Assembly (NCBI RefSeq): GCF_003115775.1
Contig: NZ_QEES01000002.1
Location: forward strand, 2,232,001 to 2,296,000
DNA from: Cellulomonas sp. WB94
GTDB taxonomy: Bacteria > Actinomycetota > Actinomycetes > Actinomycetales > Cellulomonadaceae
Direction of reading: 5' to 3'
DNA length: 64,000 bases
Made by a program: the position numbers and the translations under genes. Numbering within the stretch: position 1 is the stretch's first letter; each line of letters begins with the position of its first letter. The notes under the pieces are model-generated. The model had not been told where the DNA came from. It saw only the letters and a program-made list of their open reading frames with translations, and ran no database searches. Of the stretch, positions 60,345 through 64,000 are shown piece after piece.

Positions 60345-61054
60345 GTGATCAGCATCGGCATCGTCGAGGACGACCCCGCGAGCTCGGCGCTGCTCGTCGA
60401 CTACCTTCGCCGGTACGAGTACGAGCACGACGAGAAGTTCGCGGTGACGCAGTTCGCCGACGGCGCCGACCTCGTGGCGGGCTACCGCGCCGACATGGAC
60501 ATCCTGCTGCTCGACGTCGAGATGCCGGGGCTGGACGGGTTCAGCGCCGCGCAGCGGATCCGCCAGGTCGACCCTGACGTGCTGCTGATCTTCATCACGA
60601 ACATGACCCAGTACGCGATCCACGGCTACGAGGTCGACGCGCTGAGCTACGTGCTCAAGCCAGTGCCGTACTTCGCCTTCTCCCAGGAGATCAAGCGCTC
60701 GCTCGTCCGGCTGCGCCGTCGGACGGCCGACTACCTGCTGCTCACGGTGGACGGCGGGGTGGTCCGGGTCGCCACCGACGACATCGTGTTCCTGGAGAGC
60801 GTGAAGCACCGCACGGTCGTCCACACCGTGGACGGCAAGCACTCGGTGGTGGCCCCGCTGAAGGCGCTGGAGGCGGAGCTGGCGGGCCGGAGCTTCTTCC
60901 GCAGCAACAGCGGCTACGTGGTGAACCTGCGGCACGTGCTCGGCGTCCACGGCAGCAGCGCGCTCATGGTCGGCGGGCACGACCTGCTGATCAGCAGGCC
61001 GCGCAAGAAGGCGTTCCTGGCGGCCCTGACCGACTACCTCGGGGCGCGGGCGAC

Positions 61055-61058
<4 letters not shown>
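60345..61058 (+). CDS. LytTR-family response regulator
   Basis: This is a 237-residue regulator of the LytR/AgrA type. The receiver domain has VEDD (residues 7-10), phosphoacceptor D57 (LLLDVEMPGLDG) and the late K in YVLKPVPYF. The LytTR DNA-binding domain (from ~125) contains DDIVFLESVKHRTVVHTVDG and RSNSGYVVNLRHVLGVHG, and binds direct repeats rather than palindromes. GTG start with GAGAG upstream. Its stop overlaps the kinase ATG (ATGA). A direct-repeat site matching the LytTR consensus lies upstream of the gene at 63966. Confidence 0.93.
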
Positions 61059-63688
<2,630 letters not shown>

Positions 63689-63753
63689 CTAGGCCGCGGC
63701 CCCCACGAGGCCCGATTCTCGTGACCTCTCCGTGACCTGATGGCCCCCGCGCA

Positions 63754-63783
63754 ACAGTTCGTGCACCCAAAACGACGGTCCGT
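63754..63783 (+). promoter_or_regulatory. tandem LytTR-type binding site upstream of the gene at 63966
   Basis: ACAGTTCGT (63754-63762) matches all positions of the known LytTR consensus [TA][AC][CA]GTTN[AG][TG]. A degenerate copy ACGGTCCGT (63775-63783) follows after 12 bp, giving a 21-bp period, and both are followed by GCACCC. A third near-match TACGTTCAC (63817-63825) is in phase at two periods further. Confidence 0.6.
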
Positions 63784-63965
63784 GCACCCGGCGCCGGAGG
63801 CCCTGTCGGCCGTTGTTACGTTCACCGCACGGCCCCAGGACCACGACGTCCAGGACCGTGATCGGTTCGACAGTGTGAGCTGTTTCGCGCACCTACCGCT
63901 GGATCGCCCGACGACGGCGCGACACCGCGGGCGCGGGCATGGCCCTAGACGACAAGGGAAGGTCA

Positions 63966-64000
63966 ATGAAGACGACAACGACGGCTCGACGGCTCGATGG
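63966..64000 (+). CDS. start of a probable secreted protein, cut by the window end
   Basis: ATG 63966 is preceded by GGGAAGG at 5-nt spacing. Twelve residues are visible (MKTTTTARRLDG), a basic, Thr-rich N-terminus such as precedes a signal peptide. The gene is divergent from glf across 331 bp that contain LytTR-like direct repeats. Function cannot be determined. Confidence 0.5.
   Translation, partial: MKTTTTARRLD

Follow-up and report, generated by a model that had tools for sequence, protein, structure and literature searches.

The window, a 64,000-nucleotide stretch of Cellulomonas sp. WB94 DNA, contains two 15-bp direct repeats at 63754-63789 that, in our judgment, are highly likely to serve as operator for a LytTR response regulator whose gene lies at 60345-61058. 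Bound there, the regulator would activate an operon that runs from a secreted GH3 protein to a GT2 through a promoter without a -35 box. This regulatory link between the regulator and the repeats is predicted from sequence and is well supported by the conservation, spacing, promoter phase, and genomic context of the repeats, which are described below.

Repeat pair and promoter phase

The first half-site (63754-63768, + strand) consists of a 9-mer core (ACAGTTCGT, 63754-63762) followed by a GTGC-type extension, and the second (63775-63789, + strand), with core ACGGTCCGT (63775-63783), starts 21 bp after the first, leaving a gap of 12 bp between the two 9-mers. The copies are identical at 13 of 15 positions. 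Scored against the LytTR consensus, the cores fit at 9/9 and 7/9 positions, respectively. The initial annotation had claimed that the first 9-mer fits throughout and that a related copy follows after 12 bp in a 21-bp period, and both statements held on rescoring. LytTR direct-repeat operators consist of two imperfect 9-bp direct repeats, have a gap of 11-13 bp and a fixed phase to the -35/-10 region, and are conserved beside a cognate LytTR gene; here, two such repeats are separated by 12 bp, a probable -10 box follows at 42 bp, and the pair is conserved beside the LytTR gene.

By the broad consensus alone, the repeat pair is weak evidence and is ordinary in a 64-kb window. Three nine-of-nine words of this consensus occur on the two strands of the window, as do nine pairs with a summed score of at least 15 at 21 bp, and one pair combines a 9/9 with an at least 7/9 word at 21 bp compared to 0.5 expected. 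None of 60 order-1 resamplings contained such a pair that was also 13/15 identical. When scored with a half-site matrix built from relatives, with the window site left out, the site reaches 41.3; with all spacings of 15-30 bp allowed, the runner-up pair in the window reaches 10.0. The 9-mers at 63754 and 63775 are very probably the two halves of one predicted operator.

A probable -10 box (TACGTT, 63817-63822, + strand) follows half-site 2 at an offset of 42 bp from its start, a distance made up of the second repeat, 10 bp, the hexamer CCGGAG, and 17 bp. The hexamer (63794-63799, + strand) occupies the expected -35 place and is unlike TTGACA, as would be expected for an activator-dependent promoter. 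Among 30 actinobacterial operators, TANNNT occurs within 75 bp downstream in 18 and is absent in 12; its offset from the start of half-site 2 is 42 bp in 17 of the 18 and 41 bp in the other, and, because the loci are related, the 18 phased operators are not 18 independent cases. In further loci with TANNNT, the offset is 42 bp in L087, L092 (two sites), and L095, and 43 bp in L086. The passages available from the literature place the repeats of LytTR promoters 12 bp apart and about 10 bp upstream of the -35 region (PMC6193735) and AgrA sites about 60 bp before the transcription start (PMC4227749). The geometry in the window is consistent with that of these published promoters. A third near-match (TACGTTCAC) reported in the initial annotation is indeed present at 63817-63825, but relatives show TAnnnT, the probable -10 box, at that place, and we rejected this word as a third LytTR copy.

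A model of the operator (41 columns, trained on 19 sites including the window's own) matches the 3.87-Mb genome over its full length at a single place, 63752-63791 of the window (E 2e-10). The next match (E 9e-4), ≈0.4 Mb from there, spans positions 10-40 of the 41; it falls where long ORFs overlap and is probably a chance match in coding sequence. A larger regulon in this genome was considered and rejected, because there is a single full-length match and the next one takes in half of the operator and is far from the locus. Dedication of the operator to the GH3 operon forms part of the whole explanation proposed above and shares its high likelihood.

Conservation of the probable operator and its Firmicutes counterpart

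A regulator search of public genomes returned 62 loci, of which 16 were from Cellulomonas and relatives and 46 were from Firmicutes or so labelled. The 21-bp pair is found upstream of the first GH3 gene in all 16 actinobacterial loci examined for it (the window's own and L002-L016); L040, whose contig ends just past glf, was excluded from this set, and no operator was found there in a half-site matrix scan of both strands. In the 16 loci and the window, 21 pairs with a summed score of at least 16 occur at 21-bp spacing, compared to 0-11 pairs at each other spacing of 10-44 bp, where the 11 pairs are those at 42 bp. The half-site matrix scan of both strands ranks the pair top in all 16 loci, pointing towards GH3. 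The initial annotation had staked its proposal on conservation of the repeats in orthologous promoters, and the repeats are kept at the same place in the related loci.

Extra operators precede the permuted GH3 gene (described below) in 9 of the 15 named loci (L002, L003, L004, L006, L007, L008, L010, L012, and L015) and GH3c in one (L003). In four loci, a second 21-bp operator was noticed ≈85-160 bp upstream of the first and nearer glf (L002, 13313; L004, 13346; L006, 13371; L007, 13372), and these tandem operators might serve promoter tuning.

In a family sample, a LytTR orthologue was detected at E 1e-50 in 21 of 81 genomes. The strict operator model (E 1e-5) found sites in 5 of these genomes. 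All five belong to the 21 with the orthologue, and their sites lie 1.5-4.8 kb past the LytTR gene; none of the 60 genomes without the orthologue had a site, and 16 of the 21 genomes with the regulator missed the strict threshold. Twenty further LytTR neighbourhoods comprised 18 non-duplicate loci, since the LytTR-kinase protein rows equate L085 with L016 and L091 with L005. In 18 of the 20, the regulator has module genes (GH3, GtrA, GT2, or glf) as neighbours; the remaining two, L093 and L098, are short pieces. A broadened consensus, which was drawn up after the Firmicutes sites had been seen, gave 16 pairs at 21 bp on both strands of the 20 loci, compared to 0-5 at each other spacing of 14-29 bp. 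The 21-bp pair is present in 13 of the 18 non-duplicate loci, and in 12 of these 13 loci it lies, by inspection, ≈110-330 bp before a same-strand GH3, GtrA, or GT2 gene; the pair in L100 faces away from the module. No broadened-consensus pair was found in the other five (L093, L097, L098, L102, and L104), two of which are on short contigs. A scan of the distant actinobacterial copies L105-L108 was noisy: 16 pairs had the 21-bp spacing, and every other spacing of 14-29 bp had 3-10. One genome of another actinobacterial family (G157) has three diverged LytTR copies (L105, L106, and L107; 34-38% identical), each beside a GH3 gene.

The regulator-kinase-GH3 module also occurs in Firmicutes, with a 20-bp version of the operator. 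The Firmicutes loci examined are, by their organism labels, largely from gut-associated Lachnospiraceae. Recurrent ORF families in the 46 loci, some of which are short or cut, are the kinase (42), LytTR (38), GH3c (33), permuted GH3 (31), and GtrA-like (24) families; GT2, glf, and an ABC-type ATPase (5 each) and GH3a (3) are rarer, and other listed families occur in at most 3. The actinobacterial consensus letters alone, applied to Firmicutes, gave 19 pairs at 20 bp compared to 1-8 at each other spacing of 14-35 bp. A Firmicutes motif drawn up by eye gave 20-bp pairs upstream of 11 of 33 permuted GH3, 5 of 30 GH3c, 3 of 3 GH3a, and 0 of 43 LytTR genes, and, at the same spacing, in 3 of 660 and 4 of 600 shuffles. 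When TANNNT was required at 39-43 bp, 24 pairs occurred at 20 bp, 7 at 21 bp, and 0-6 at each other spacing. This 20-bp operator with a -10 box is present in 21 of the 46 loci (inside GH3c in L054) and absent from 25. In L017 (3058-3110), half-site 2 is followed by its inverted copy (GCAGTTTATGC ... GCATAAACTGC), which may form a hairpin or be an additional site. In loci of the L051/L054 type, the permuted GH3 gene is preceded by different short repeats (TTGCACTTCATGAAGA and TTTTGCATTTCATGCC), which may be a diverged operator.

In an unrooted FastTree of LytTR plus kinase (78 rows), 33 Cellulomonas-type rows form one side of a branch with support of 100, and 38 of 41 Firmicutes rows group on the opposite side. 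A phylum sample gave a match at E 1e-40 in 2 of 295 other genomes, with few candidates scored per genome. Together with the 21 of 81 genomes of the family sample, this distribution and the tree suggest one arrival in the family followed by spread or loss. L010, labelled Sphaerisporangium cinnabarinum, has a LytTR-kinase pair that falls tightly among Cellulosimicrobium, and its label or strain may be wrong.

Probable target operon, sensor kinase, and alternative explanations

The initial annotation had advised extending the sequence to identify the gene at 63966. This was done over the next 26 kb, and the gene encodes a secreted GH3 protein, an 807-aa lipoprotein (GH3a; 63966 to L064:8390, contig position C2:2298389; + strand) with the lipobox LTGC in its sequence and its first 35 bases in the window. 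Downstream of it on that strand come a small lipoprotein gene, a permuted GH3 gene (L064:9149-12112) whose product has a TM segment at each end, GH3c (a GH3 without TM; L064:12254-14653), a GtrA-like gene (L064:14676-15305), and a GT2 gene that begins at L064:15302 and ends 321 bases into L065. The shared strand and short gaps imply that the genes from the GH3 lipoprotein to GT2 form one operon. Some domain assignments are marginal: the C-terminal GH3 domain of GH3a matches Pfam weakly (22.9 compared to a cut-off of 31), as does GtrA (26.3 compared to 26.1). Against an alpha-L-arabinopyranosidase model whose cut-off is 1300, GH3c scores 720 bits, and many beta-glucosidase structures also match it; reading the GH3 substrate from family names was rejected, because GH3c falls far under that cut-off.

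In the permuted GH3, the C-terminal-type domain comes first and the N-terminal-type domain last, the reverse of the Pfam order; this arrangement is not unique, and PDB entries 5wug and 5k6l align likewise. D875, presumably the nucleophile, is kept in 61 of 62 sequences, and E222, presumably the acid/base, in 62 of 62, the roles being assigned from sequence motifs. TM-like segments are found near both ends in 57 of the 62. Conservation of both residues and of the terminal segments implies that the permuted GH3 is probably catalytically active and tethered on the outer face of the membrane.

About 1-14 kb downstream of the GT2 gene (in L065 of the same genome) are ABC-transporter-like ORFs (substrate-binding, permease, and ATPase). 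Polysaccharide utilisation loci combine glycosidases with a regulator and a sugar transporter. No transporter family occurs in more than 5 of the 46 Firmicutes loci, and none is among the 22 clusters listed for 35 actinobacterial loci; many loci end inside the module. The recurrent families among these clusters are the module genes, ORFs antisense to them, and one upstream ORF in 7 loci.

Upstream of the operator, the arrangement that the initial annotation had described was found in place: a LytTR regulator, an AgrC-class kinase, and glf between them and the repeats. The regulator (60345-61058, + strand) has a receiver and a LytTR DNA-binding domain, is the only LytTR protein found in the genome, and aligns through its LytTR domain to AgrA structures 3bs1 and 4xqj (E about 0.02). 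The GHKL histidine kinase (HATPase_c_5; 61055-62503, + strand) has six or seven TM-like segments within residues 16-221, and its His-263 is present in all 60 kinases compared. Mean identity to the window kinase is 79% in the sensor and 82% in the kinase part for 16 actinobacterial kinases, and 32% and 42%, respectively, for 43 Firmicutes kinases. Eighteen sensor positions, including R18, W26, E109, R207, and D211, are invariant in 41 kinases; E25, W116, Q117, S184, and N185 are also conserved in the sensor. This conservation of the sensor domain across phyla favors a conserved signal and disfavors a strain-specific peptide.

We propose that the membrane kinase perceives a signal and phosphorylates the LytTR regulator, two molecules of which would bind the two half-sites on one helix face, two turns apart. 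The bound regulator would then recruit RNA polymerase to the promoter without a -35 box, with its -10 box at 63817-63822, and switch on the operon from the secreted GH3 at 63966 through GT2. The signal may be a conserved small molecule, such as a glycan fragment, an envelope precursor, or a GH3 product, rather than a strain-specific peptide. There is no sign of feedback on the regulator gene through the operator: the half-site matrix scan of actinobacterial loci found no site before the LytTR gene, nor did a scan of 43 Firmicutes upstream regions at 20-21 bp, and autoregulation through this operator type was rejected on this basis.

With a HATPase_c_5 domain as in the Agr/ComD class and a sensor of several TM segments, the kinase looks as expected if it read a secreted peptide as AgrC does and turned the locus on at high cell density. 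We consider such peptide quorum sensing unlikely. AgrB was not found in the genome, which is a weak negative because 0 of 14 control genomes reached the cut-off, and no small-peptide family recurs among ORFs of at least 90 aa in the Firmicutes or actinobacterial loci. Agr-type systems are recognized by AgrB and AgrD genes and by a variable, strain-specific sensor; passages of one report extend the agr hypervariable region over agrB, agrD, and agrC (PMC10482373). Within the reach of the weak AgrB search and of ORFs of at least 90 aa, neither gene was seen here, and the sensor, with its 18 invariant positions, comes close to the kinase domain in conservation. Of the quorum- or signal-controlled surface or secreted locus first suggested, the secreted part is borne out by the protein at 63966, and the quorum part is disfavored by these AgrB, peptide, and sensor results.

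The location of the site in the glf-GH3 intergenic region raises the question of whether the operator instead serves the divergent glf gene (UDP-galactopyranose mutase; 62492-63634, - strand) for galactofuranose supply, with the GH3 operon incidental. The second pair nearer glf in L002, L004, L006, and L007 and the presence of glf in 5 of the 46 Firmicutes loci would fit such a role. However, the direct repeats are directional and face GH3 in every matrix-scan match with both strands scanned, the -10 box is on the GH3 side, and the site of L090 and L103, although located between GtrA and glf, points to GtrA. Moreover, the window and 9 of the 15 named loci have glf between the kinase and GH3; the other 6 lack it there. 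With sites pointing away and 6 of 16 site-keeping loci lacking glf, we rejected glf as the target, a reading that we regard as extremely unlikely. It is also very unlikely that a different 21-bp-phased regulator uses the repeats and that their linkage to LytTR is coincidental. Binding by the LytTR protein is predicted from sequence: the half-site fits the LytTR consensus, the geometry fits LytTR promoters, no other regulator family recurs among the clusters listed for the loci, and sites of the strict model are confined to genomes with the regulator (5 of 21 compared to 0 of 60 without it).

The locus may be a dedicated signalling and editing module of the surface that is shared between phyla, an interpretation that we put forward tentatively and with less than even confidence. 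A conserved sensor of a glycan or envelope metabolite would, by way of a single LytTR operator in phase with the -10 box, control sugar-adding and sugar-removing enzymes for on-demand remodelling rather than food uptake, with the circuit kept as the operator period changed from 20 to 21 bp. GT2, GtrA, and sometimes glf would add sugars, and the membrane-anchored permuted GH3 and lipoprotein GH3 would remove them. The identity of the signal would reveal what many gut bacteria sense with a kinase of this type. The module is of wider interest for its Agr-class sensor, which seems to respond to a conserved signal and not to a peptide specific to the strain, and for its operator, which is kept between two phyla and is easily scored.

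Comparison with known systems

BtsSR and YpdAB are metabolite-sensing LytTR systems, which share with the circuit proposed here a LytTR regulator, a small dedicated regulon, and a response to a small molecule, and differ from it in kinase class and target. DNA binding by YpdB is the subject of one report (PMC4847170). AgrA/ComE-type regulators likewise have direct 9-bp repeats 12 bp apart, similar -10 spacing, and a GHKL kinase. Compared to these, no AgrB was found and no peptide gene was seen here, the sensor is conserved across phyla, the predicted target is a GH3 operon, and no operator was found before the regulator's own gene. The LytTR Regulatory Systems HdrRM and BrsRM, as described in passages of PMC6193735, have the same 9-12-9 repeats about 10 bp from the -35 region, but they combine an inhibitory membrane protein partner with autoregulation. 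Here, the partner is a HATPase_c_5 histidine kinase with His-263 in 60 of 60 sequences rather than an inhibitory non-kinase protein, and no autoregulatory repeats were found before its own operon.

A precedent is from Butyrivibrio proteoclasticus, where LytTR regulators were reported in 2010 next to secreted GH3 proteins with a C-terminal TM helix in PUL7, 21, and 33 (PMC2914790, in part). Compared by description, this gene association is probably the same module; the passages concerned mention neither an operator nor conservation of the kinase, and they do not describe the association in other genomes. A LytTR regulator with a kinase is listed for a Roseburia locus (PMC5320581, in part). A description of the operator was not found in the literature covered, which lay mostly outside subscription journals. 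The association of LytTR and membrane GH3 genes was thus known before, and the operator is ordinary in kind; the present analysis turns this loose association into a specific, testable circuit composed of an operator, a promoter phase, a kinase, and a target operon.
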